Source of the DNA: Enterococcus phoeniculicola ATCC BAA-412
GTDB taxonomy: Bacteria > Bacillota > Bacilli > Lactobacillales > Enterococcaceae
Reading direction: 5' to 3'
DNA: 64,000 nucleotides
Assembly (NCBI RefSeq): GCF_000407505.1
Contig: NZ_ASWE01000002.1
Coordinates: 62,001 to 126,000, forward strand
Part shown: piece by piece, positions 26,011 to 38,776 of the stretch
Layout: each line of letters starts with the position of its first letter
Position numbering within the stretch: position 1 is the stretch's first letter
The notes under the pieces: model-generated
Database searches by the model: none
What the model saw: only the letters and a program-made list of their open reading frames with translations
What the model was told of the DNA's origin: nothing
Translations under genes and position numbers: made by a program

Positions 26011-26063
26011 CATGCGTATCCAAACGCTAGAGGTTATTCTAGTTTAGGATGCGCATGTTTTTT
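26011..26063. terminator. Bidirectional terminator between convergent operons
   Basis: CATGCGTATCC pairs with GGATGCGCATG, with a second stem (CTAGA/TCTAG) inside. T runs stand on both sides, serving the PTS/phosphatase operon and the ABC permease gene. Confidence 0.8.
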
Positions 26064-26784
26064 ATTTCTTTTTTTCAAGAGAATCTATTCCGCTGAAAAA
26101 CGCGAAGCCTACTATCCCAATCATGAGTATGCCGACGAACATTTCTGGATAGTCCATTTTTGCCCACGCACTTAAGATAAGGTAGCCCAAACCGTACGTG
26201 GTATTATAATTTTCAGCAAAAAATAAAGAAGCTAAAGAGATACCCACGCTTACACGCAGACTAGCATAAAGATTCTTTTGTATCGCTGGAAGAATCAGAT
26301 AACGAATGGTTTGCCACGAAGTACTGCCGTAATTTTCCATTAAGCGATAATAGTTTTTAGGAATACTGTTTACACCATCTCGAATGGAGACAATGACTTG
26401 GATGGAAATGATGGCAAAAATTAATAGAACTTTGGAGGTGTTTCCTAACCCAAAGAAAATCATGAATACAGGTAAAAATGCAACTTTTGGCAGAGGATAC
26501 AAGAAATAAATTAGCGGGCCTAAATACTTGTCTAACCTCTTTATACGACTTAGTAAAATCCCCAGAGGAATCCCTATAAGCAGTGAGATGCCCAACGCAA
26601 CAATGATACGCAGAAAACTAGCGCCAGTGTGCAGCAGTAATGTCTGTTTAATCATCCAAGCTTTTTGAAGCGCAGCTAAGGGACTGGGAATCGAATGGTT
26701 TTGAATTGCGAAATAGAGTAGGGTCCATAACGCGATAAAAGAAAAAAGACCTGTGATAAAGGAAACAAACGGTTTAATTTTCAT
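26062..26784 (-). CDS. ABC transporter permease, SsuC/TauC/ThiX type
   Basis: 240 residues, six hydrophobic segments, with the EAA loop in MENYGSTSWQTIRYLILPAI. This family moves sulfonates, nitrate, or thiamine-precursor pyrimidines together with NMT1-type binding proteins. AGGAGG is five bases before the ATG. Its start overlaps the ATPase gene's end by 11 bases, so the two are coupled. The matching binding protein is encoded in the divergent unit at 28347. Confidence 0.88.
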   Translation of the reverse strand: MKIKPFVSFITGLFSFIALWTLLYFAIQNHSIPSPLAALQKAWMIKQTLLLHTGASFLRIIVALGISLLIGIPLGILLSRIKRLDKYLGPLIYFLYPLPKVAFLPVFMIFFGLGNTSKVLLIFAIISIQVIVSIRDGVNSIPKNYYRLMENYGSTSWQTIRYLILPAIQKNLYASLRVSVGISLASLFFAENYNTTYGLGYLILSAWAKMDYPEMFVGILMIGIVGFAFFSGIDSLEKKK

Positions 26785-27499
26785 GAGTACCTCCTCTTAT
26801 TGCCATTCGCAGCTGAATACAAAATTCATAGAACTCAAGGGTTTCCCGACGGTTTTCAAGAGCGAATGTCGGGTTTTCGTAGACAGAGAGGGTCTGGTTT
26901 TCCAGCAGTAAAATCGTTTCCCCTAAATAAGCTGCTTCCTCAATATCATGTGTAACCACTATTAGTGTATTTTCTCGCTTTTTTTGTTCCTCTAAAATAA
27001 ATGACTGTACGTCTTCTTTGGTTTCCTGATCTAAAGAGGAGGTGGGTTCGTCTAGCAATAAAAAATCAGGATTCGTTATCAATCCGCGTGCCATTGCTAC
27101 CCGCTGTTTTTGCCCGCCGCTAAGTTGGTTGGGAAACCGATTGGCTAGCTCTTCAAGATGAAATTCGGTAAGAAGCGTAGCTATTTTTTCTTTTCGTTTC
27201 TTTTTTTCCACATTTGAAATGAGTAAAGGTAGTTCAATCGCTTGCTCCACAGTTTGCCAATCAAAAAGAAGCAGCTCCTGAAAAATCAATTCGATTTTGT
27301 TTGTTGTTGTTTCTTCGTAACGAATGCTTCCTTGTTGAGGTTGCTCAAATCCTTTTAAAAGATTGAGTAAAGTACTCTTTCCATTTCCAGATTTCCCAAC
27401 TAACGCATAGGTTTTTCCTTGTAAAAAGGAAAAATTTAATTGGTTAAAAAGCATTTTTTTTTCATAGCCAAAGGTCAGGCTATTTACTTCGATTTTCAT
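26774..27499 (-). CDS. ABC transporter ATPase, SsuB/ThiZ type
   Basis: 241 residues. Walker [10 protein letters not shown] (about 33-41), signature [15 protein letters not shown] (about 125-139), Walker [10 protein letters not shown] (about 146-154) and the switch His in VVTHD are all present. It energises the permease encoded downstream. I start it at ATG 27499, where GGAG lies seven bases upstream; the longer frame (to 27532) adds eleven residues with no site of its own. Divergent from the polysaccharide deacetylase gene. Confidence 0.9.
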
Positions 27500-27594
27500 A
27501 ACAGGCTCCTTTTTCATTGTGAGTAAACACACAAAATTCTATTATTATGCTATACTATCTAAGGAAAATTCAATCAGAAGGAAAGGTGAAACGT

Positions 27595-28341
27595 GTGTTT
27601 CGAACACTTGTATTTCATGAAGTTCGCCCAGAAAGTGAGCTTGCATTAGGCCAAAGACCCATTCAAGTTGCTGATGGATACGAAGATTCATTACCCATGC
27701 CACTGTATGTTAGTGTAGCGCATTTTCAAGAACAAATAAACTTTTTACAGGAACAAAAATATCATTGCTTAACAGTAAATGAAATTAAAGCATTTTATGA
27801 AAAAAATCAACAACTCCCAGAAAAGTCTGTATTCCTGACATTTGACGACTGTTATCAATCGTTGAAAGAGTATGCCTATCCAATTTTAAAAAAGGCAAAT
27901 ATGAAGGCGACCGTTTTTGTTGTCAAAGGCTGGCTATTTTCTGAGGAAGAAACCTATCATCCAGAACGTTCACAGTGTTTGAGTGTAAAAGAAGTGGAAG
28001 CGATGGCAGACGTTTTTGAAACGGCGAATCACACGACGCATTTTCATAAAAGAAAGGGCACGACATTATCACAACCTATGTGGGAGCCTAAGGGACGGGT
28101 GGAAGAGGATATTCTTGAATGTAATCAGTTCGTTACGCATAAGGATGTGTTTGCTTATCCATTTGGACTCTACAATCAGGAAACAGTGAGTATTTTAGAG
28201 GAAATGAACTTCCGATTGGCGTTTACAACAAAATCGGGCTGGAATTCTCTGGAAACACCACCGCTAGAATTGCATAGAGAAGTGATACCAGAAGCGATGA
28301 GTTTACAGGCATTTCAATTGTTAATGAAGGAAGAGGCGTAG
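27595..28341 (+). CDS. Polysaccharide deacetylase family protein (NodB homology)
   Basis: About 248 residues. Motif 1 is LTFDDCYQSL (catalytic and metal Asp pair); motif 2 is NHTTHFH, the metal-binding HxxxH type. FAYPFGLYN is the motif-3 region. No signal peptide or membrane anchor is seen, so it is not an obvious cell-wall enzyme and may act on a small acetylated or formylated molecule in the cytoplasm. GTG 27595 is preferred: GAAAGGTG is 7 bases upstream and an extended -10 (TGCTATACT, 27548-27556) lies before it. The binding-protein gene follows after five bases, suggesting that it processes what the ABC system imports. Confidence 0.85.
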   Translation: MFRTLVFHEVRPESELALGQRPIQVADGYEDSLPMPLYVSVAHFQEQINFLQEQKYHCLTVNEIKAFYEKNQQLPEKSVFLTFDDCYQSLKEYAYPILKKANMKATVFVVKGWLFSEEETYHPERSQCLSVKEVEAMADVFETANHTTHFHKRKGTTLSQPMWEPKGRVEEDILECNQFVTHKDVFAYPFGLYNQETVSILEEMNFRLAFTTKSGWNSLETPPLELHREVIPEAMSLQAFQLLMKEEA

Positions 28342-28346
28342 AAAAA

Positions 28347-29324
28347 ATGAAAAAATTTATTTTAGGGTTAGGGATTGTTTTATTAAGTGTGGCAGGCTTA
28401 GGTGGCTGCGGAAATGGACAGACAAAAGATTCAGCTAACGAATCAACAAAGGAAAGCTCTGCTGCAAAAGTAACGGATGAACCATTGACTATCGGTATTT
28501 TACCAGCGGAATCGGCTATTCCTATCATTATTGCTAAAGAAGAGGGGTTCTTTGAAAAAGCAGGTTTAGCAGTTGAAATTAAAGCATTTACTTCACCAAA
28601 TGATCGAAATGTAGCGATTCAGTCAAAAGCATTGGATGGCACAATTAGTGATGTTATGACGGAGGCTACCTTTAAGAAAAATGGGATTGACATGAAAATC
28701 ACCTCAGGAATTCTTGAAGACTTTAAGGTATTGGCTTCGCCACAGTCAAAAATTACAGAAATGAAACAGCTAGATCAACACACAGTAACGCTTGTGCCAA
28801 ACTTTATCTTAGAATACATTATGGATGAATTTGCCAAAAAAGATGAGTTTACTTATGAGATAGTAGATATTGCTTCATTTTCTGCACGCTCAGAAGCATT
28901 GCTGAATGGTCAAGTAGATGGTGCGGTTTATACAGAGCCACAAGCAAGCATGCTTGAAAAACAAGGTGCGGTCATTCTAGGCAGCTCACAAGATTTGGGA
29001 ATCAATGGCGGAACTATTCAATTTATGGATGGGATACTCAAAGAACGGCCACAGGATGTTCAAGCCTTTTACAAAGCATACAATCAAGCTATTGATTATA
29101 TGAATGAACACAAAGCAAGTGAATATGCAGACATTTTAACCACCTATCAATTTCCTGATGCTATGAGTCAGTACCTAGATAGTAAGAAGGAGAAGTATCC
29201 TCACGCAAAAGCAGTGACAAAAGAGCAATTTGACAGCATTATCCAATGGGCAAAAGATAAGAAACAGATTGATGAAGCCTATAAATACGAAGATTTAACT
29301 GATTTTTCAGGAATTGCTAACTAA
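28347..29324 (+). CDS. NMT1/THI5-like substrate-binding lipoprotein of the split ABC importer
   Basis: 325 residues. The signal peptide ends in LGGC (Cys at about 21), giving a lipid-anchored extracellular protein. The NMT1-like fold is shown by LTIGILPAESAIPIIIAKEE (about 46-65) and FFEKAGLAVEIKAF. Relatives bind thiamine pyrimidine precursors, sulfonates or riboflavin-type compounds. The permease and ATPase genes are on the opposite strand about 0.8 kb upstream. No riboswitch was recognised before either unit, so the ligand stays open. Confidence 0.88.
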   Translation: MKKFILGLGIVLLSVAGLGGCGNGQTKDSANESTKESSAAKVTDEPLTIGILPAESAIPIIIAKEEGFFEKAGLAVEIKAFTSPNDRNVAIQSKALDGTISDVMTEATFKKNGIDMKITSGILEDFKVLASPQSKITEMKQLDQHTVTLVPNFILEYIMDEFAKKDEFTYEIVDIASFSARSEALLNGQVDGAVYTEPQASMLEKQGAVILGSSQDLGINGGTIQFMDGILKERPQDVQAFYKAYNQAIDYMNEHKASEYADILTTYQFPDAMSQYLDSKKEKYPHAKAVTKEQFDSIIQWAKDKKQIDEAYKYEDLTDFSGIAN

Positions 29325-29330
29325 GAAAAC

Positions 29331-29375
29331 AAAAGCCAAGTAGTGGTCATAAGGACAGCTACTCGGCTTTTTTTA
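29331..29375. terminator. Terminator between the binding-protein and DeoR genes
   Basis: AAAGCC plus AGTAG pair with CTACT plus GGCTTT around a loop, followed by seven T. The T run reaches the end of the convergent deoR-type gene. Confidence 0.75.
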
Positions 29376-30134
29376 AACTATAGAAATATTTTCATAAATG
29401 GAGGTTGTTTCATTCGGTAACTTTCCATCGCTGATAATCAGCTGAATCTCCTGGAGTGTAGCAAAATTTATAATTGATTTTTTTTCAAATTTAGTACTAT
29501 CAATTAGAGCAATAGTTTGTTCTGATTCTTTAATCATTAATTTTTTTAATTCTGCTTCATACATTTTAAAATCAGATAAGCCATCTTTTGCAGAAATCGC
29601 ATAGCTAGATGTGAAAAATGTATCAATGTTAAATTTCTTTAAAAGATCAATTCCTAAGCTTCCCTCAATTGCATTCGAGTTTGGTGTGACAATTCCCCCT
29701 AAAACAATAACTGTCATCTGGCCATTTTCTTTTAACAGACTTGCTGTTCGCAATCCGCTCGTTAAAACAGTTAGTGGCTCAGTGTATTCAAGAAGAAGCT
29801 GCGCCAATTCATAACAAGTAGAGCTTGCATCCAATAAAATACAATCATTTGCGTGGATATAACGAATCGCTTTTTTTGCAATGACTTGTTTTTCTGCCAA
29901 ATTGACACTTTTACGGATGTCATATGCTCGTTCGGCTTCTGTAATTGCTTTTTCATCATTTTTTGTTGCACCACCATGTGTACGAATAAGTAAGTCTGTT
30001 TCTGCTAGTTTATTTAAATCACTCCTAATTGTAGCAGCTGATACATCAAAGCAAGTAACTAATTCTTCTACCGTTACAGAGTGCTTCTTTTCCAGCATCT
30101 CCAGTATTTTTTGTCTTCGCTCATTTGTAAACAT
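29373..30134 (-). CDS. DeoR-family repressor of the polyol operon
   Basis: 253 residues. The N-terminal helix-turn-helix has RRQKILEMLEKKHSVTVEEL, with DVSAATIRSDLNKLAETDLL as recognition part. The C-terminal sugar-phosphate sensor fold contains ILLDASSTCYELAQLL and VIVLGGIV, and IALIDSTKFEKKS near the end. It diverges from the gol-like operon, and the 184-base gap holds inverted TTTCGTTTATTT / AAATAAACGAAA copies. Repression relieved by a phosphorylated intermediate of the operon is the expected mode. A DeoR gene adjoins the corresponding Listeria locus too. Confidence 0.9.
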   Translation of the reverse strand: MFTNERRQKILEMLEKKHSVTVEELVTCFDVSAATIRSDLNKLAETDLLIRTHGGATKNDEKAITEAERAYDIRKSVNLAEKQVIAKKAIRYIHANDCILLDASSTCYELAQLLLEYTEPLTVLTSGLRTASLLKENGQMTVIVLGGIVTPNSNAIEGSLGIDLLKKFNIDTFFTSSYAISAKDGLSDFKMYEAELKKLMIKESEQTIALIDSTKFEKKSIINFATLQEIQLIISDGKLPNETTSIYENISIV

Positions 30135-30318: not shown

Positions 30319-30771
30319 ATGAAAGTAGCAGTAGGGGCAGATATAAATGCATTTGAATTAAAAGAAGAATTAAAACGCTATTTAGAAGGTGAAGGATTTG
30401 AAGTAGTTGATTATGGAATTTACAGTAAAGATCCGGTGGATTATCCTCGAGTAGCAGCTAAAGTAGCAGAGGGAATCCTAAATAAGGAAGCAGAACGTGG
30501 TATCTTGTTTTGTGGAACAGGGATTGGAATGGCATTAGCTGCAAATAAAGTAAAAGGAATTCGTGCCGCTCAAACACATGATACCTACTCAGCAGAGCGC
30601 GCGGAACTTAGCAATCAGGCGCAAATTATTACGATTGGTTCAAAAGTAGTAGGTGTGGAATTAGCTAAGAAAATTGTAAGTGCTTACTTGTCAGCGGATT
30701 TTTCATTTGAGGGATCAGGAAAAAACTCTGCAAGAAAAGTTGAAGAGATTATGGAAATGGAAAATAGATAG
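30319..30771 (+). CDS. RpiB/LacAB-type sugar-phosphate isomerase
   Basis: 150 residues of the RpiB/LacA-B family. The catalytic Cys is in ILFCGTGIGM and the basic pair HD in RAAQTHDTYSAE. The usual N-terminal DHAG phosphate-binding motif reads DINA here, so it differs from ordinary ribose-5-phosphate isomerase. Four-carbon isomerases of the EryI type (erythrulose-4-phosphate to erythrose-4-phosphate) belong to this family and would suit this operon. First gene of the operon; GAGAGGTG lies about 8 bases before the ATG. The exact substrate is inferred, not seen. Confidence 0.85.
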   Translation: MKVAVGADINAFELKEELKRYLEGEGFEVVDYGIYSKDPVDYPRVAAKVAEGILNKEAERGILFCGTGIGMALAANKVKGIRAAQTHDTYSAERAELSNQAQIITIGSKVVGVELAKKIVSAYLSADFSFEGSGKNSARKVEEIMEMENR

Positions 30772-30786
30772 GAAAGGAAGAGAGAG

Positions 30787-31437
30787 ATGAAATTTTTCTT
30801 GGATACGGCAAATATTGAAGAAATTAAACGAATTAATGAATTAGGACTTGTTGATGGGGTGACGACCAATCCAACGATCATTTCTAAAGAAGGAAGAGAT
30901 TTTGAAGAAGTAATTAAGGAGATTTCTCAAACTGTTAAAGGACCTGTGAGTGCCGAAGTGATTTCTTTGGAAACTGAGGGAATGATCGAAGAAGCAGAAC
31001 GTGTTTCAAAATGGGCGAGTAATGTTGTTGTAAAAATTCCAATGACAGAAAATGGACTTCGTGCCGTACATATCCTGTCTCAAAAAGGAATAAAAACGAA
31101 TGTAACACTTGTTTTCACAGTGGCGCAAGGATTGATGGCAGCAAAATCTGGTGCAACTTATGTCAGTCCATTTTTAGGTAGACTGGATGATATTTCATCA
31201 GATGGGCTTGCTCTAGTTTCAGGTTTGAGACAAGTATTTGACCGATTTGGCTTTGAGACAGAAATCATTTCTGCAAGTGTTCGGAATATTCAACATGTTG
31301 AGAAGGTGGCGCTTGCTGGTTCTCATATTGCAACAATCCCAGGAAATCTATTCCCTAAATTGTGGAGCCATCCATTGACAGACTCAGGAATTGCCGCATT
31401 TATGAAAGATTGGGAAAATTTTGAAAAAAATAAGTAG
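30787..31437 (+). CDS. Fructose-6-phosphate aldolase / small transaldolase
   Basis: 216 residues, the length of TalC/FSA-type enzymes. It starts [14 protein letters not shown] and has [10 protein letters not shown]; the Schiff-base lysine is in [11 protein letters not shown] (about residue 85). The family either transfers dihydroxyacetone units (transaldolase) or splits/forms fructose-6-phosphate from DHA and glyceraldehyde-3-phosphate. Either activity links DHA to the pentose phosphate pathway, matching the transketolase at the operon's end. AAGGAAGAGAGAG precedes the ATG. Its last 17 bases overlap the start of the next gene. Confidence 0.9.
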
Positions 31438-32227
31438 CCAATTTTATAAAAAAAGAACCCCGATTGTTGCAATGAGCTATAAAAACTATTTGAATAAGCC
31501 AGAAGAAGTTGGTCTACTTGTCGAAGAAATTATTTTGGGGCTAAAAGAGAGTAAAACAGAATTTATGGAATGCTTCTTATTTCCAAGTATGGGAACCATT
31601 GAAACTGTAGCTCGTTTCTGTAAGGGAAGCAATCTAGGGTTTGGTGCGCAAAATATAGCCCCACAAAAAAATGGTGCATATACGGGAGAATTTTCTATAG
31701 AGAGTTTAATAGCACTTGGTGGTCGTTATGTTGAATTAGGTCATTTTGAAAGGAAAACCCTTTTTTTTGAGACAAATCAACAAATAAAAGAAAAAATTCA
31801 TTTAACTTTATCAGAATCAATGATCCCAGTCTTATGTATTGGTGAGACCATCAAATGTGAGGGGCAAATGTTAGAAGAAATATTGATGGAACAATTGAAA
31901 GAGCTTTTGTCAGAGATAAATGAAGAGAAAGTCGTGAACGTTATCCTTGCTTATGAGCCGGGATGGGCAATTGGTCAAGCGAAACCAGCTAGTATTGCAC
32001 ATATTCATCGTTCGCATACATGTATCCGACGTTGCTGCGAACGGCTCTTTACTAAAGAAATTGCAGAACACATCCGGATTATTTATGGGGGATCTGTTTC
32101 TTTAACAGAAGTAAGTGAAATAGTGGATCATCAAGAAGTAGATGGCGTATTCGTTGGTCGTTTTGGTCATGAAGTCAATCAATTTTTAGAAATTATTCAG
32201 AGAGTCAGTCAAATGAAGGAGGAATAA
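31421..32227 (+). CDS. Triosephosphate isomerase-like protein A (catalytic residues kept)
   Basis: 268 residues of the TIM family. The active-site Lys (K21 in VAMSYKNYL), His (H108 in ELGHFERK) and Glu (E179 in AYEPGWAIG) are all present, but the Asn that normally precedes the Lys (N-W-K) is Ser, and the loop-6 sequence GQAKPA differs from the standard GTGKTA. This suggests an isomerase for a non-standard substrate, such as the erythrulose phosphate isomerase LerI, rather than the glycolytic enzyme. The start is TTG 31421 inside the transaldolase gene, so translation is coupled. A diverged paralogue is encoded at 35972. Confidence 0.85.
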
Positions 32228-32230
32228 TAG

Positions 32231-32611
32231 GTGGACAGTGTATTACTAGTTTCTCACAGTAAGAAGATTACCGATGGTTTAAAAGAAATGATTGAGGAGA
32301 TGATCGGTGAGGAAAGTAAAGTTCCGTTGCATTCGCTTGGTGGGACAGAAGATGGTCGCTTGGGAACGGATGCAATGAAGATACTTTCCTGTATTGAATC
32401 AAGCGCTTCATCTGAAAATATATATATTTTCTGCGATATTGGTAGCGCTATCTTGAGTGCGGAGACAGCGATTGATATGACGTCAGAAGAATTACAGAAG
32501 AAAATTATTTTAACGGATTGTCCATTAGTTGAAGGCGCGTTTGCAGCTGCAGTCCAACTATCAATCGGTCAGTCAAAAGAGCTTGTCTTACAAGAATTAA
32601 ATCATTTATAA
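32231..32611 (+). CDS. dhaM: DhaM-type phosphoryl carrier (EIIA-Man fold)
   Basis: 126 residues, GTG start with AAGGAGG eight bases upstream. VLLVSHSKKITDGL places the phosphorylated histidine at residue 9, as in DhaM. LHSLGGTEDGRLGT is the typical second motif. Only the EIIA domain is present (no HPr or EI modules as in E. coli DhaM). It takes phosphate from HPr and re-phosphorylates ADP bound to DhaL. Together with dhaK (33423) and dhaL (35313) it makes a full PEP-dependent kinase. Confidence 0.92.
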   Translation: MDSVLLVSHSKKITDGLKEMIEEMIGEESKVPLHSLGGTEDGRLGTDAMKILSCIESSASSENIYIFCDIGSAILSAETAIDMTSEELQKKIILTDCPLVEGAFAAAVQLSIGQSKELVLQELNHL

Positions 32612-32625
32612 AGGAGTGTTTTCTC

Positions 32626-33057
32626 ATGAAGTTTATTCGGTCTTTTATTGGCTATATGATAGCTGGTGTTCTTGTGATGGCCGTATGGGGACAATTGACT
32701 GAAGCGGGTGGAATTTTTGGCGGATACTTGGCTGCAACCATTCTTGTGGGACCACTTTGGTTTATGAACCATTATATAAATCTTGTGGATAATAAAAATG
32801 ATGCTGCATTCGTAGATATGGGACTGGCAATTGGAGTTTGTGGAATTTTTCGGGATATGTTTTTAACTGGTACGCAAAGTTTTGTTGATTCTCTTCCAAC
32901 TATTTTTCTTGTCTCTTTAGGAGCTGTTGCAGGAGGACTTGTAGCGGCAGCAATAGAAAAAGATATGGCAAAAGAAGTACATGAACATGTTCCTGAACCA
33001 GGAATGGCTGAAGAAGAGATGGAAAAACTGGATGTTCAAGGAGGGGTAGAGATATGA
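32626..33057 (+). CDS. Four-helix membrane protein A of the polyol operon, unknown function
   Basis: 143 residues. Hydrophobic segments at about 3-24, 28-50, 63-80 and 88-111, then a 30-residue acidic tail. GGYLAATILVGPLWFMNHYI, followed by FVDMGLAIGVCGI, is matched in the next gene's product by GGFMAAAFITGTIWTLNHGI and WVDMGLAAGIGCW, so the two are paralogues. Homologous small membrane proteins sit in the listerial gol operon without known function. No PTS EIIC or glycerol facilitator is in the operon, so a role in uptake of glycerol, DHA or a C4 polyol is a reasonable guess. AAGGAG precedes the ATG. It overlaps the next gene by four bases. Confidence 0.8.
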   Translation: MKFIRSFIGYMIAGVLVMAVWGQLTEAGGIFGGYLAATILVGPLWFMNHYINLVDNKNDAAFVDMGLAIGVCGIFRDMFLTGTQSFVDSLPTIFLVSLGAVAGGLVAAAIEKDMAKEVHEHVPEPGMAEEEMEKLDVQGGVEI

Positions 33058-33395
33058 CTGTGGCAATTGGTGTTGCAACATTTGCCGGTGGGTTTCTTTT
33101 TCCATTTTTCATCCGAATGGCTTGGGGAAAGATGGTAGACTCTTGGGGTCCTATAGGAGGATTCATGGCAGCGGCGTTTATTACAGGTACAATTTGGACG
33201 TTAAACCATGGAATTGGTACACCTATGATATTTCAATCAGGTGCATCATGGGTAGACATGGGGTTAGCGGCAGGTATTGGGTGTTGGGTAGCTACTGCTA
33301 GATTAGGAATGAGTGCGAAGAAATCAACTAAAAATGTAATCGCAGCAATATCAGGTGGAATTGCTGGAGCAGCGCTCTTATTCTTATTTTTATAA
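33054..33395 (+). CDS. Four-helix membrane protein B of the polyol operon, unknown function
   Basis: 113 residues with four hydrophobic segments (about 3-25, 30-53, 63-83, 93-113) and hardly any soluble part. It shares the NH and (F/W)VDMGLA motifs with protein A, whose stop it overlaps (ATGA), implying coupled, equal production and probably a hetero-oligomer. It lacks A's acidic C-terminal tail. An invariant Asn-His in helix 2 and an Asp at the head of helix 3 are unusual polar residues inside a membrane protein and could line a substrate path. Not assigned to any transporter family by me. Confidence 0.8.
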   Translation: MTVAIGVATFAGGFLFPFFIRMAWGKMVDSWGPIGGFMAAAFITGTIWTLNHGIGTPMIFQSGASWVDMGLAAGIGCWVATARLGMSAKKSTKNVIAAISGGIAGAALLFLFL

Positions 33396-33422
33396 AAATG
33401 GAAAATAGAAAGAGGGAAGAAA

Positions 33423-34415
33423 ATGAAACGATTAGTAAATGATGGTTATGACGTAGTAGAAGAAATGTTGGAAGGATATGCACATGCAAATCAAAAATAT
33501 GTCAAGTTAGATGAGGAAAGTCAGCGTGTTGTAGTAAGTAACATGATGAGTGACGAACCACGTGTACGAGTGATTGTGGGGGGCGGTTCAGGTCATGAAC
33601 CCTTATTTTTAGGGTATGTAGGAAAGGATTTTGCGGATGCTGCAGTTGTGGGCAATATTAATACTTCTCCAGCTCCAGATGCATGCTATCGTTCTGTAAA
33701 AGCTGTAGATTCAGGAAAAGGCTGCATCTTTTTATATGGGAACTATTCTGGGGATGTCATGAACTTTGATATGGCTGTTGAAATGGCAGAAGAAGAAGGA
33801 ATTCGTGTAGAAACGGTATTAGTAACAGATGACGTATGCTCTGCAAAAGCTCGAGAAAATCGCCGTGGGATTGCAGGAGATGTTCCGGTTTTTAAAGTGG
33901 CAGGAAGTGCCGCAGCTAAAGGGTATGATTTAGATAAAGTAACTGCCGTAACGCAAAAAGCAAATGACAGCACATACTCAATGGGAGTTGCCCTTTCTTC
34001 TTCCACACTTCCAGTTACTGGAAAAGAAATTTTCTTCATGGAAGATGGAGATATGGAGATTGGCATGGGTATTCATGGAGAGCCAGGTTTAGAAAGACGA
34101 AAAATTGATCCGGCAGATAAAGTAGTTGATGAAATTATGACACATATTTTAGCAGATGCTCCTCTTTCAAAAGGAGATGAGGTGTATGTTCTGTTAAACG
34201 GGTTAGGTGGTTTACCTGTAATGGATCAGTATATCTGTTATCGAAGAGTTTTCCAAATTCTTGAAGAAAAGGGAATTAACATTCATCGTTCAGAGGTTGG
34301 GAACTATGCGACATCAATGGATATGATTGGTATGTCAGTAACGTTAGTGAAATTAGACAGCGAATTAAAGGAATTATTAGATGCACCATGTGATACCCCG
34401 TACTATAAATTATAG
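33423..34415 (+). CDS. dhaK: Dihydroxyacetone (or erythrulose) kinase, DhaK subunit
   Basis: 330 residues. The substrate-binding histidines are conserved: His58 in GGGSGHEP and His218 in MGIHGEPG, the latter forming the hemiaminal with the carbonyl of DHA, with E. coli-like numbering. DhaK binds the ketose while DhaL carries ADP and DhaM supplies phosphate. LerK (erythrulose kinase) is also of this family, so a C4 ketose substrate remains possible. AGAGGGAAG precedes the ATG. It lies between the membrane pair and the dehydrogenase. Confidence 0.93.
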   Translation: MKRLVNDGYDVVEEMLEGYAHANQKYVKLDEESQRVVVSNMMSDEPRVRVIVGGGSGHEPLFLGYVGKDFADAAVVGNINTSPAPDACYRSVKAVDSGKGCIFLYGNYSGDVMNFDMAVEMAEEEGIRVETVLVTDDVCSAKARENRRGIAGDVPVFKVAGSAAAKGYDLDKVTAVTQKANDSTYSMGVALSSSTLPVTGKEIFFMEDGDMEIGMGIHGEPGLERRKIDPADKVVDEIMTHILADAPLSKGDEVYVLLNGLGGLPVMDQYICYRRVFQILEEKGINIHRSEVGNYATSMDMIGMSVTLVKLDSELKELLDAPCDTPYYKL

Positions 34416-34462
34416 GCTATAAAGAACAAAAAATAAAAAAGAAACTAAAGGAGAAATGAAAG

Positions 34463-35227
34463 ATGGACTATACAGGATTTGATATTAATTTCGGTTTAGA
34501 AAATAAAGTGGCAGTGATTACAGGTGGACTAAGCGGCATTGGTCAAGCTATTGCAGAATTATATATTAAGAAAGGTGCAAAAGTAGCAATTTTTGATGTA
34601 AAACCAACAGCAGCTGAAGAAGCAAAAGCTACATTTGGCGAAGCCGCGATTGGGTTTACGGTTGATGTTACTAGCAAAGTACAAGTAGAGACAGCAATTA
34701 AAGAAACATTGGCAGTATATAATAAGATTGATTTGCTGGTAAACTCTGCTGGTGTTGCGTTGTTGGATGATGCTGAAAACTTATCTGAAGAGTATTGGGA
34801 TAAGACATTTGCTATTAATGTGAAGGGGAGCTTTTTGGTTGCACAAGCAATTGGGAATGAATTCATCAAGTCTGGTGGTGGAAAAATTATCAACATGGCT
34901 TCACAAGCTGCTGTCGTTGCGCTGGATAATCACGTAGCTTATTGTGCAAGTAAAGGGGCTATTGTTTCAATGACGAAAGTTCTTGCTTACGAATGGGCAC
35001 AATTTAACGTAAATGTGAACTGTATTTCACCAACCGTTATTCTGACTGAACTAGGGAAAAAAGCTTGGGCTGGTCAAGTTGGAGAAGATATGAAGAAACA
35101 AATTCCAGCAGGCCGTTTTGGCTATCCGGAAGAAGTCGCTGCCTGTGCACTATTCTTAGCATCAGATGCCTCTAACTTAATGACTGGAGAAAATATGGTC
35201 ATTGATGGTGGCTATACTATTAAATAG
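34463..35227 (+). CDS. GolD-like short-chain polyol dehydrogenase
   Basis: 254 residues of the classical SDR family. The cofactor motif is TGGLSGIG (20-27), Asp45 after the second strand favours NAD over NADP, and the catalytic set is Ser147, Tyr160 and Lys164 (YCASK). NSAG replaces the common NNAG. In this operon it would oxidise glycerol to dihydroxyacetone, as listerial GolD does, or a C4 polyol such as threitol to erythrulose. AAAGGAG is about 8 bases before the ATG. A hairpin with terminator-like T run follows before dhaL. Confidence 0.88.
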   Translation: MDYTGFDINFGLENKVAVITGGLSGIGQAIAELYIKKGAKVAIFDVKPTAAEEAKATFGEAAIGFTVDVTSKVQVETAIKETLAVYNKIDLLVNSAGVALLDDAENLSEEYWDKTFAINVKGSFLVAQAIGNEFIKSGGGKIINMASQAAVVALDNHVAYCASKGAIVSMTKVLAYEWAQFNVNVNCISPTVILTELGKKAWAGQVGEDMKKQIPAGRFGYPEEVAACALFLASDASNLMTGENMVIDGGYTIK

Positions 35228-35241
35228 AAAAACTATATAAG

Positions 35242-35290
35242 TCCAAGAAAAAGCCATTTTCTAAAATAGTGATGGCTTTCCTTGGATTTT
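35242..35290 (+). terminator. Hairpin inside the polyol operon, partial terminator or processing site
   Basis: TCCAAG plus AAAAGCCAT pair with ATGGCTTT plus CTTGGA with one mismatch, followed by TTTTC, 15 bases after the dehydrogenase stop and 23 before dhaL. It may reduce expression of dhaL, the second TIM and transketolase or set an mRNA end. Confidence 0.6.
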
Positions 35291-35312
35291 CAATGATATG
35301 GAGGACTGGAAA

Positions 35313-35972
35313 ATGAGTGAACAATTATACTTGGATAAGGCATTTTTTAAACAATCATTACTAGATATGGCAAAATTGACAGAGGAACAACGTGATTATT
35401 GGACATCTTTAGATTCTGATATAGGGGATGGAGATCATGGAGTCAATCTGAGTATTGGCTTCAGAGGAATTTCAGCTCAAATGAATGACTTGTATGAAGA
35501 AACTGAAGATATTCACAGCCTTTTGAAGAAATCTGGTATGATTTTGCTTTCAAAAGTTGGCGGTGCTTCAGGTCCTTTATATGGGAGTTTCTTCATGAAA
35601 ATGGGAGAAGACGTTACTGGGAAAAATCAGGTTAGTTACTCAGAGTTTTTGGGAATGATTAAGAATGGGATTGCAGCAGTACAGCATCGTGGTAAGGCCC
35701 AAGTAGGGGACAAAACGATGATAGACGCATTTCTTCCAGGGCTAGAAGTCCTAGAAACCTATCAGGTAGAAGAAGATCCGTATCAATTTTTTGAGAAGTT
35801 TATTGAGGTTATGAAAAAAGGGGCAGAAAGTACAATTCCTTTAGTTGCAAATAAAGGTCGAGCGATGCGTTTAGGGGAACGAGCAATTGGGCATAAAGAT
35901 CCAGGTTCAGAGTCTTCTTGGATGTTGATGGATATATTTAACAAAAATCTGAAAGTTAGAAGTGAAATATAA
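35313..35972 (+). CDS. dhaL: Dihydroxyacetone kinase ADP-binding subunit, DhaL
   Basis: 219 residues, all-helical DhaL fold. The Mg/ADP motif is DSDIGDGDHG (about 29-38), followed by GGASGPLYGSFF and, later, GDKTMIDAFLPGLE. ADP stays bound and is re-phosphorylated by DhaM. The start is ATG 35313, with GGAGG eight bases upstream; the longer frame's ATG at 35298 lies before that site. Its stop overlaps the start of the next gene (TAATG). Confidence 0.92.
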   Translation: MSEQLYLDKAFFKQSLLDMAKLTEEQRDYWTSLDSDIGDGDHGVNLSIGFRGISAQMNDLYEETEDIHSLLKKSGMILLSKVGGASGPLYGSFFMKMGEDVTGKNQVSYSEFLGMIKNGIAAVQHRGKAQVGDKTMIDAFLPGLEVLETYQVEEDPYQFFEKFIEVMKKGAESTIPLVANKGRAMRLGERAIGHKDPGSESSWMLMDIFNKNLKVRSEI

Positions 35973-36754
35973 TGAATAGCCGAAAACCGATTGTCGCCAT
36001 GAGCTGGGCAATGAGACAAAATAAAAAAGAAGATGCAGTTCGCTTTGCAACGACGTTAATTCAACAGTTAAATCAAGAAAATGAAGTAGAGAAGATTATC
36101 TTTCCCTCTATGGGAACGTTGTCTGCTGTGGCAGAAGTCACCAAAAATACAACCATTGGATTAGGGGCACAAACGATTGCTGCAGATGCACAGGGAGAAT
36201 ATTCGGGGGAATATTCTATCGAGTCTTTGGTTGATTGCGGCGGCAAATATGTTGAGCTTGGTCACTGGGAGCGACGTGAATTATATGGTGAGACGGATGA
36301 ACAGATCAACAAAAAACTAAGATTAGCAATTGAATATGGAATCTCTCCCATTCTATGCGTTGGCGAAAAAGAAAAAGAGTTAGAAACCTTACCCTACAGT
36401 CAATTAAAAAGACAATTATTTAATGCATTATTTGAGTTGCCGAAGGAGCAGTTGGCTCAAGTGATTATTGCTTATACGCCTCAATGGGCGGTTGGTCAAA
36501 CACGTGCAGCGAGTGCGCCTCACATACATGAGGTGGGTCGTTTGATTCGTTCGATTTTAGAGGAGTTTTATCCAAGCAAAGTTGTTCAAGAGGTTCGTGT
36601 TATTTACGGAGGCTCTGTCAGCCCTGAAAATGCTCGTTTAATCACTTCTGATGAAGGAATTGATGGGGTTTTGGTAGGACGATTTGGGAGTGAACCTCAT
36701 CGGTATGCGGAAGTTGTTTCAGTTATTGAAGAAAATAAATTAGAAATACGCTAA
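35972..36754 (+). CDS. Triosephosphate isomerase-like protein B lacking the catalytic Lys and Glu
   Basis: 260 residues, clearly TIM family (ELGHWERREL with His98; IYGGSVSPENA phosphate loop). However, the position of the catalytic lysine is Ala13 (VAMSWAM, against VAMSYKN in paralogue A) and the position of the catalytic glutamate is Thr169 (AYTPQWAVG, against AYEPGWAIG). An ordinary triosephosphate isomerase reaction is therefore not expected. It may be a structural or regulatory partner of paralogue A, a sugar-phosphate sensor, or an enzyme with a new mechanism. The reading frame is intact, the gene is coupled to dhaL, and conservation outside the two sites is good, so it does not look like a decaying copy. 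Confidence 0.85.
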   Translation: MNSRKPIVAMSWAMRQNKKEDAVRFATTLIQQLNQENEVEKIIFPSMGTLSAVAEVTKNTTIGLGAQTIAADAQGEYSGEYSIESLVDCGGKYVELGHWERRELYGETDEQINKKLRLAIEYGISPILCVGEKEKELETLPYSQLKRQLFNALFELPKEQLAQVIIAYTPQWAVGQTRAASAPHIHEVGRLIRSILEEFYPSKVVQEVRVIYGGSVSPENARLITSDEGIDGVLVGRFGSEPHRYAEVVSVIEENKLEIR

Positions 36755-36781: not shown

Positions 36782-38776
36782 ATGTTCGACAACACAGATC
36801 AACTAGGCGTTAATACAATTCGTACTTTAAGTATTGAAGCCATTCAAAAAGCCAATTCAGGTCATCCAGGATTGCCAATGGGCGCAGCTCCTATGGCGTA
36901 TGCACTTTGGACCAAGCACTTAAAAGTAAACCCAACAACTTCAACTAACTGGGTGGACCGCGACCGCTTTGTTCTTTCTGCAGGACACGGGTCAGCAATG
37001 CTTTACAGCTTGCTGCATCTTGCAGGCTATGATGTGACGATGGATGATTTAAAAAATTTCCGTCAATGGGAAAGTCGCACACCTGGACATCCAGAAGTTC
37101 ATCACACAGATGGTGTGGAAGCAACTACAGGCCCATTAGGTCAAGGAATTACCATGGCTGTAGGAATGGCGATGGCAGAAGCCCACTTAGCAGCAACTTA
37201 CAACCGTGAACATTTTAATGTAATGGATCACTATACGTACGCGCTTTGTGGAGACGGTGATTTGATGGAAGGGGTCTCTCAAGAGGCGGCTTCTATGGCT
37301 GGACATATGAAATTAGGCAAATTGGTTGTGTTGTACGATTCTAACGACATCTCATTAGATGGTCCTACTTCTAAAGCCTTTACTGAAAATGTTGGTCAAC
37401 GATTCGAAGCTTACGGTTGGCAACATATTCTTGTCAAAGACGGCAATGATTTGGAAGCTATCTCAAACGCAATTGAAGAAGCCAAAGCACAAACGGATAA
37501 ACCTACCTTAATTGAAGTCAAAACGGTCATCGGTTACGGCGCACCAAAAGAAGGAACCTCTGCGGTTCATGGCGCACCATTAGGTGACGAAGGAATTTCG
37601 GTCGCTAAAGCCGTTTATGGATGGGAATATCCTGACTTCACAGTACCTGAAGAGGTAGCCGCTCGTTTTAAAGAAACCATGCAAGACAAAGGAATTCAAG
37701 CAGAAACTGCATGGAATGAACAATTTGAAAACTACAAGCATGCATATCCAGAATTAGCGGCACAATTTGAAGCAGCATTCTCAGGCAAGCTTCCTGAAGA
37801 TTGGGCAAAAGAATTGCCTCATTATGAAGTGGGTTCTAGTCAAGCAAGCCGAGTGTCAAGTAAAGACATGATTCAAGCTATTTCAAAAGCGGTCCCAAGC
37901 TTCTGGGGAGGTTCCGCTGATTTATCTGGGTCAAATAATACAATGGTTGCCGCAGAAAAAGATTTCGAGCCTGGTCAATATGAAGGACGAAATATTTGGT
38001 TTGGTGTGCGTGAGTTTGCGATGGCCGCCGCAATGAATGGGATTCAATTACACGGTGGAACCAAAGTCTACGGTGGAACATTCTTTGTCTTCACCGACTA
38101 CTTACGTCCAGCGATTCGTTTAGCAGCCATTCAAAATGTTCCTGTAACCTACGTATTAACTCATGATTCTGTAGCAGTAGGAGAAGATGGTCCAACACAT
38201 GAACCGATTGAACAATTAGCGAGCGTTCGTTGTATGCCAGGGGTTCATGTCCTTCGTCCAGCAGATGGCAATGAAACACGCGCCGCTTGGAAGATTGCGA
38301 TGGAATCAACTGATACACCAACTATTTTGGTCTTAAGCCGTCAAAACCTTCCTGTTTTAGAAGGCACAGACGAATTGGCAGACAGCCATGTAGCCAAAGG
38401 CGGTTATGTGTTGTCCCCACAAAAAGGGGAAACACCTGAAGGAATCCTGATTGCGACAGGATCAGAAGTTGCTTTAGCTGTGGCCGCACAAAAAGAATTA
38501 GCAGCACAAGGAAAAGATGTTTCCGTGGTATCACTACCAAGTTTTGATTTGTTTGAAGCACAAGACGAAGCGTACAAAGAATCTGTGCTACCAAAAACAG
38601 TCACAAAACGTGTAGGAATTGAAGTTGCCTCACCATTTGGTTGGGAACGCTACACAGGAACAGAAGGAAAAATGATTGGTATCAATCACTTTGGCGCTTC
38701 TGCACCGGGAGATAAGATTATGAAGGAGTATGGATTTACGGTAGAAAACATCGTAGCGCTATTTAACGAATGGTAA
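36782..38776 (+). CDS. tkt: Transketolase
   Basis: 664 residues, full length. The thiamine-diphosphate motif runs from [18 protein letters not shown] (about 158-175) to the Asn in [10 protein letters not shown]. The N-terminal signature is [15 protein letters not shown], and the C-terminal domain has [15 protein letters not shown]. It moves two-carbon units between ketose and aldose phosphates. Last gene of the operon; it turns C4/C3 phosphates into pentose phosphate and glycolytic intermediates. Its codon use looks more biased to highly expressed genes than the preceding genes, so it may also serve as the main cellular transketolase. AGAAGTGAGTAA before the ATG is a weak site. Confidence 0.95.

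Follow-up and report, generated by a model that had tools for sequence, protein, structure and literature searches.

Paired DUF6905 membrane proteins as a probable two-part facilitator for small polyols in Bacillota

Introduction

How does the substrate of a polyol operon enter the cell when the only transport candidates in that operon are two small membrane proteins of a Pfam family without an assigned function? The question is raised by a locus of Enterococcus phoeniculicola ATCC BAA-412, within a stretch of 64,000 nucleotides (contig NZ_ASWE01000002.1, positions 62,001 to 126,000) that is hereafter called the window. Two overlapping genes, here termed A and B, are located in this window among genes for dihydroxyacetone (DHA) phosphorylation, a GolD-type dehydrogenase and several isomerases. 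A previous sequence-only reading of the locus had proposed that A and B are paralogues forming a heteromeric transporter for a polyol or ketose, and that they represent a new family of small transporters or channels.

In this study, we report an analysis of the A-B pair, its operon in the window, and its relatives in other genomes. A and B are likely to be a facilitator for small polyols, and the strongest evidence for this is their placement in glycerol and arsenic operons outside the window. We assign a probability of about 0.6 to the combined reading, namely a heteromeric facilitator of small polyols or ketoses with an aquaporin-like split architecture. The architecture as such, an aquaporin-like channel divided over two genes with its N-terminal half represented by A and its C-terminal half by B, is given slightly less than an even chance. 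The literature searched appears to contain no description of the role of DUF6905, of its pairing, or of its resemblance to a divided aquaporin.

Results

The DHA kinase operon in the window

The A-B pair belongs to an operon with the gene order rpiB-fsa-tpiA-dhaM-A-B-dhaK-golD-type SDR-dhaL-tpiA-tkt, which is accompanied by a divergent DeoR-family regulator and followed by mvaE/mvaS. The features are as follows.

29373-30134, reverse strand: divergent DeoR-family regulator (PF00455/PF08220)
30319-30771, forward strand: RpiB-type isomerase, also resembling D-erythrulose-4-phosphate isomerase, below the cut-off of that model
30787-31437, forward strand: fructose-6-phosphate aldolase, FSA/TalC (TIGR00875, 304 bits)
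31421-32227, forward strand: triose-phosphate-isomerase-like protein 1 (TpiA)
32231-32611, forward strand: DhaM, phosphoryl donor of DHA kinase (TIGR02364, 141.5 bits)
32626-33057, forward strand: gene A, DUF6905 subunit A, 143 aa (PF21846, E 2.4e-36)
32758-32820, forward strand: motif of A, W45-x2-N48-H49...F62-V-D64-M65, from the end of TM2 through the loop to the start of short helix 3
33054-33395, forward strand: gene B, DUF6905 subunit B, 113 aa (PF21846, E 4.5e-31)
33054-33057, forward strand: stop/start overlap ATGA of A and B (translational coupling), read directly from the sequence
33195-33260, forward strand: motif of B, W48-x2-N51-H52-G53...W66-V-D68-M69
33423-34415, forward strand: DhaK-type DHA kinase subunit (TIGR02363, 372 bits, under the cut-off of 406)
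34463-35227, forward strand: GolD/DthD-family polyol dehydrogenase, SDR (NF005309, 386 bits, over the cut-off)
35298-35972, forward strand: DhaL (TIGR02365)
35972-36754, forward strand: triose-phosphate-isomerase-like protein 2 (TpiA)
36782-38776, forward strand: transketolase, identified from its translation

Gene-by-gene annotation revealed no other transport gene within the operon, in agreement with the sequence-only reading. The dehydrogenase family covers DthD, a D-threitol dehydrogenase, as well as GolD, and C4 polyols are candidate substrates in the window along with glycerol and DHA. Two different TpiA-like genes and one RpiB-like gene in a single operon (30319-36754) suggest erythrulose-phosphate isomerases and hence catabolism of C4 polyols beside that of glycerol and DHA. 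In Listeria monocytogenes, growth on glycerol is lost only if both glpD and golD are deleted (PMC12052390), and this double requirement supports glycerol as a substrate of the gol operon. A separate small transport locus lies at 26062-29324, upstream of the DeoR gene and outside the operon; its reverse-strand ABC permease and ATPase genes are accompanied by genes for a polysaccharide-deacetylase-like protein and a substrate-binding lipoprotein.

Genes A and B are paralogous members of DUF6905

The two ATGA-overlapping genes are as the sequence-only reading had delimited them, and each is preceded by a good Shine-Dalgarno sequence. Both proteins match PF21846 over their whole length and above its curated cut-off of 27 bits (124.8 bits for A and 107.9 bits for B), as do all 71 B proteins that were scanned. 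The Pfam entry gives no function, pairing or context for DUF6905, and no paper naming the family was found in the literature searched. None of the NCBIfam models matches A or B, and a search of PDB sequences with the A and B profiles yielded no relative; the nearest B protein is that of Enterococcus malodoratus (83%). Since the family is catalogued in Pfam, and since the A+B profile and fold model described below point weakly to the aquaporin family (MIP), the earlier suggestion of a wholly new family is unsupported.

By sequence comparison, A and B are true paralogues: BLASTP aligns them far above chance (E 3e-11), and the profile-profile check of A versus B with hhalign gave a probability of 99.5% (E 3.9e-23, 110 columns). 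They share a block that reads GGY...WFMNH...FVDMGLA in A and GGF...WTLNH...WVDMGLA in B. The Gly-Gly, Asn-His and (F/W)VDMGLA elements that had been described are thus present, but the spacing is W-x2-NH rather than W-x3-NH. Among 71 sequences of each subunit, W45, H49 and D64 of A are invariant, with N48 at 97% and M65 at 94%, while in B the invariant residues are W48, H52, G53, W66 and D68, with N51 at 94% and M69 at 85%.

Distribution of the pair

With the Pfam model, DUF6905 was detected in 13 of 397 other Bacillota genomes and in 3 of about 398 further Bacilli genomes; among 59 close relatives, the window's own genome alone scored over the cut-off. One scan of the genome collection provided 79 named loci. 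The carriers include Listeria, Enterococcus, Vagococcus, Streptococcus suis, S. minor and S. cuniculi, Erysipelothrix, many Clostridia, and Gilliamella from the Pseudomonadota, and in the plasmid collection only Listeria and one Enterococcus record were found. In total, 98 loci were collected, which are not independent because they include close relatives and in some cases the same strain from two collections. They contain 94 complete pairs, always in the order A then B, with gaps of -62 to +72 nt. The four remaining B genes are unpaired, A being missing through a contig edge or a broken frame. A and B are separate genes in 94 of 94 pairs, versus both halves on one polypeptide in MIP. A fifth single, at L051:9861-10151, is a degraded remnant and represents the third copy in a genome with two intact pairs (G307).

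The pair occupies the glpF position in glycerol operons

Neighbouring gene clusters were named with NCBIfam and Pfam models, and the contexts of the 98 loci were counted by hand. About 62 loci have glpK close by, 21 are of the gol/DHA-kinase type, four are arsenic (ars) loci, other FGGY kinases are present in four, and the remaining seven are of mixed type. The usual glycerol order is glpP (glycerol-3-phosphate antiterminator)-A-B-glpK-glpO2/glpA-FAD/NAD oxidoreductase-gene for a 121-aa protein, often with dhaKLM further on, and the order in Streptococcus is glpK-glpO1-A-B. An MIP gene near the pair was seen at two of the 98 loci only (L052 and L053).

In the sample of 397 Bacillota genomes, glpK is present in all 13 genomes with DUF6905 versus 183 of the 384 others (Fisher p 8e-5). 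Ten of these 13 genomes lack any MIP, and each of the ten has the pair 48-195 bp upstream of glpK; glpF is likewise found upstream of glpK in 36 genomes of the same sample, at a distance of 44-308 bp. Where an MIP has been retained alongside DUF6905 (three genomes), it is the MIP that occupies the slot upstream of glpK, and the pair is found elsewhere. Taken alone, the loss of MIP across DUF6905 genomes does not reach significance (3 of 13 versus 65 of 183 with MIP, p 0.28), because many glpK-containing genomes have no MIP. We therefore dropped genome-wide mutual exclusion of DUF6905 and MIP, and the argument is limited to the operon slot. Genomes with the pair and without MIP were found in Alkaliphilus, Natronincola, Fusibacter, Petrocella, S. 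suis W153, S. minor, Gilliamella apicola and Geosporobacter. In Enterococcus, Listeria and Vagococcus, whose pairs are of the gol type, MIPs are retained at other genomic sites, and three MIP genes are present in the genome from which the window comes.

Several operons contain additional genes. Tepidanaerobacter-type glycerol/DHA operons (L040:16962-18698 and relatives) encode a methyl-accepting chemotaxis signalling domain joined to a PhnD-like substrate-binding domain. A response regulator with a Spo0A-type DNA-binding domain adjoins A-B at L089:8606-9403 and similarly in L093, L098, L101, L108 and L123. These are glycerol operons of the Erysipelotrichia type, and in most of them the regulator gene immediately precedes the pair on the same strand. 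In Enterococcus sp. 669A (L130:7230-11034), the pair lies between D-threonate-kinase-like and cyclase-like genes, neighbours that hint at sugar-acid substrates for some members. A further sugar context is represented by the pairs of L115 and L069, beside genes for a xylulokinase-like FGGY kinase and deoxyribose-phosphate-aldolase-like proteins.

The pair in arsenic clusters

An ars locus was counted only if arsC stands beside the pair, because ArsR-like genes alone are not proof of an arsenic function. The gene orders are arsR-A-B-arsC-arsR-arsP in L079, arsR-phosphoesterase-arsR-phosphoesterase-A-B-arsC-arsD-arsA...arsP in L081 (similar in L082), and A-B-arsR-arsC in L122. Acr3 is absent from the three genomes of L079, L081 and L122. 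The genes alternating with arsR directly upstream of A-B in L081:7637-9585 and L082:7498-9546 encode calcineurin-like phosphoesterases. Anaerosolibacter carboniphilus (G834), whose genome lacks MIP, has two of its three pairs in ars clusters and the third in a glycerol operon. In a tree of B proteins, the three Anaerosolibacter ars copies cluster together (98%) and adjoin a copy from a glycerol operon; the use in arsenic clusters therefore looks derived.

Aquaglyceroporins conduct As(III) inward as well as outward: GlpF does so with arsenite acting as a glycerol mimic, and AqpS from the ars operon of S. meliloti mediates downhill efflux of arsenite made by ArsC (PMC6205960, PMC1440775). By analogy, the placement of DUF6905 in both glp and ars loci is the double habitat of the aquaglyceroporins GlpF and AqpS, and a solute set of glycerol and As(OH)3 would point to a passive pore for neutral solutes.

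Predicted topology and fold of A and B

In AlphaFold models, each protein has the four helices that the sequence-only reading had proposed (in A: TM1, TM2, a short H3 and a long H4). The polar residues assigned earlier to predicted helices are at the end of helix 2 (N48/H49 in A, N51/H52 in B); helix 3, which is short, begins with the invariant Asp. Positive charges are conserved at the N-terminus of A (K2 85%, R5 61%) with none in its loop 1; in B none is at the N-terminus, and loop 1 has R21 (65%) and K26 (87%). Accordingly, the first two helices are predicted to run in opposite directions, with the N-terminus of A inside and that of B outside. The C-terminal tail of A is acidic. The hydrophobic part of helix 3 spans only 11-12 residues; the conserved lysines in loop 3 of B (K90, 82%) and in the tail of A are better fitted by four full crossings than by three plus a re-entrant helix.

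The fold of the pair was modelled with AF2 as one chain from Enterococcus crotali, where the genes are in one frame, using 23 paired rows and reading the stop codon of A as Gly, so that the partners are tethered in this model (pLDDT 83, pTM 0.81). Foldseek ranked aquaporin 3 first, weakly (E 2). When Foldseek's candidates were realigned with VIA-align, the first 37 entries were all aquaporins, followed by BacA (4.5). The best match, AQP2, has a Z of 6.6 with an rmsd of 4.4 over 142 residues, and chance matches among helical bundles can attain a higher Z than this; GlpF scores 5.5, and the last B helix falls outside the aligned range. The aquaporin match of this model is suggestive only. For B alone (pLDDT 86.5), the fold search returned nothing convincing, the best match being the SMR protein Gdx-Clo (weak, Z 5.7, rmsd 5.8). 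A fold search in the viral library gave nothing usable (best E 0.08).

Profile comparison with aquaporins

A concatenated A+B profile (91 rows) aligns with a profile of 35 MIPs in the native order over 178 columns with a sub-significant probability of 78% (hhalign, E 1.7e-5). In this register, A lies over TM2 to TM3 and B over TM4 to TM6 of MIP, with W-V-D-M of B over N-P-A-R-D. A reversed MIP profile gave E 0.23, and the long alignment was lost in the order B+A. The MIP score of 42.5 compares with a maximum of 31.5 and a mean of 15.2 for 96 other membrane families, this null set being membrane proteins from the fetched loci; depth-matched controls scored 23.2 (CrcB), 11.6 (SMR) and 14.6 (PlsY). 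MIP is thus the best of all families tried with A+B (99 others), and single MIPs outscore single other membrane proteins against the A+B profile (p 4e-10). All 12 of 12 jackknife subsamples retained the register, at probabilities of 22-82%. A or B alone against whole MIPs reached only 6-17%, and the signal comes in part from the Gly-rich last helix.

The defining motifs of MIP are missing. NP[ASV] occurs in 1 of 93 A proteins, a chance hit, and in 0 of 93 B proteins; no arginine of the ar/R filter was recognized in A-B; and the MIP model (PF00230) matched neither A nor B in a Pfam scan with E up to 5, nor any of the 71 B proteins. By these motifs, the pair is not a member of MIP. Other candidate relatives were rejected, namely CrcB (hhalign 2-14% with 28 CrcB sequences, PF02537), SMR (PF00893, <1%) and PlsY, on its depth-matched score.

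Discussion

The position of A-B in the place of glpF and in that of an arsenite channel, together with the faint likeness to aquaporins, suggests that it is probably a two-part channel for glycerol or small sugars. The view of the sequence-only reading that a paralogous heteromer transports a small polyol or ketose is well supported by the 94 pairs, by their placement in glycerol, DHA and ars loci, and by the opposite predicted orientations. In the mechanism that we infer, the N-termini of A and B would lie on the inner and the outer side of the membrane, respectively. The two subunits, inverted relative to each other, would form an antiparallel pair enclosing a narrow pore, which the invariant N-H and D residues of A and of B would line. 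The solute would be uncharged, in the window operon most likely glycerol and/or DHA and possibly C4 polyols. It would diffuse inward and be trapped by GolD-type oxidation and phosphoenolpyruvate-dependent phosphorylation by DhaKLM, or elsewhere by GlpK, while in ars clusters As(OH)3 made by ArsC would exit downhill through A-B. The more specific proposal that the DUF6905 proteins are half-aquaporins, forming an antiparallel heterodimeric channel of the aquaglyceroporin type for glycerol uptake and arsenite release, and being either a relic from before gene fusion or the product of a later split, is tentative and somewhat less probable than its negation.

Alternatively, A and B may form an antiparallel heterodimeric facilitator with four full crossings per subunit, built like Fluc/CrcB or SMR, in which case the aquaporin likeness would be convergence or noise. 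A and B bear the signature of Fluc pairs (PMC3755343) in their size (113-143 aa), their four helices, their tandem paralogous genes and their opposite charge bias; the loop-3 lysines of B fit four crossings, and Gdx-Clo is, weakly, the best match of B alone. We consider this build rather unlikely, in view of the lack of a profile relationship with CrcB or SMR where MIP does better, the short hydrophobic part of helix 3, and the aquaporins as best matches of the A-B model.

The placement in operons bears on two further explanations. The Asp (D64/D68) and His (H49/H52) residues, invariant in membrane segments of each subunit, could serve a proton- or sodium-coupled active transporter of glycerol or DHA, and the contexts with other FGGY kinases, a D-threonate-kinase-like protein and sugar-phosphate aldolases (L115, L130, L135) suggest a substrate range wider than that of a glycerol pore. 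Such coupling seems improbable for very small subunits that occupy the slot of the facilitator glpF, and the ars context requires none, fitting the downhill mode of AqpS. Alternatively, an adjoining kinase for small polyols is the sole element common to most loci, and A-B might be a membrane anchor or sensor that holds this kinase (GlpK, DhaKLM) or reports its substrate. This is very improbable, given that no such kinase is found near any of the four ars loci, that the pair has no soluble domain and its conserved residues are within helices or at their ends, and that it is the sole membrane protein in the glpF slot of ten genomes without MIP.

A heteromeric facilitator with aquaporin-like split architecture would provide a function and a testable mechanism for a Pfam family of unknown function that occurs across Bacillota and in Gilliamella, and would name the missing glycerol channel for the glycerol operons of many Clostridia without GlpF. 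The pair is also a candidate for the unlinked two-subunit stage thought to precede inverted-repeat membrane proteins such as aquaporins. Fluc has been the proposed analogy for this stage (PMC3755343), whereas A-B, if the reading is true, would resemble the aquaporins themselves.

Comparison with known systems

The two-gene Fluc fluoride channels are modelled, with experimental support, as an antiparallel heterodimer, for which the authors drew the analogy with aquaporins (PMC3755343). A-B resembles them as tandem paralogous four-helix proteins of about 110-140 aa with opposite K/R bias, its topology being predicted, but has no profile similarity (2-14%), other motifs and another genomic context. 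GlpF and the other aquaglyceroporins (PF00230) share with A-B the slot beside glpK, and by the A+B profile and fold model A may resemble the N-half and B the C-half of MIP; GlpF is one chain, whereas A-B is encoded by two genes, is devoid of NPA motifs, and has a similarity below certainty. Like the gene for AqpS, the pair stands beside arsR and arsC in genomes without Acr3; AqpS is a single-chain MIP, and the arsenic role of A-B is proposed from context.

The closest relative of the window operon considered here is the gol operon of Listeria (lmo0343-0351), whose GolD provides L. monocytogenes with another pathway of glycerol utilization (PMC12052390). It contains lmo0349 and lmo0350 as hypothetical genes (PMC5491136), and these are the comparable listerial genes that the sequence-only reading had pointed to. 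The gene order differs, the window having its SDR gene between dhaK and dhaL and its isomerase genes first, but the gene set is the same, and in the Listeria loci L102 and L112, as in L. monocytogenes, the A-B pair has the same place, between dhaM and dhaK.
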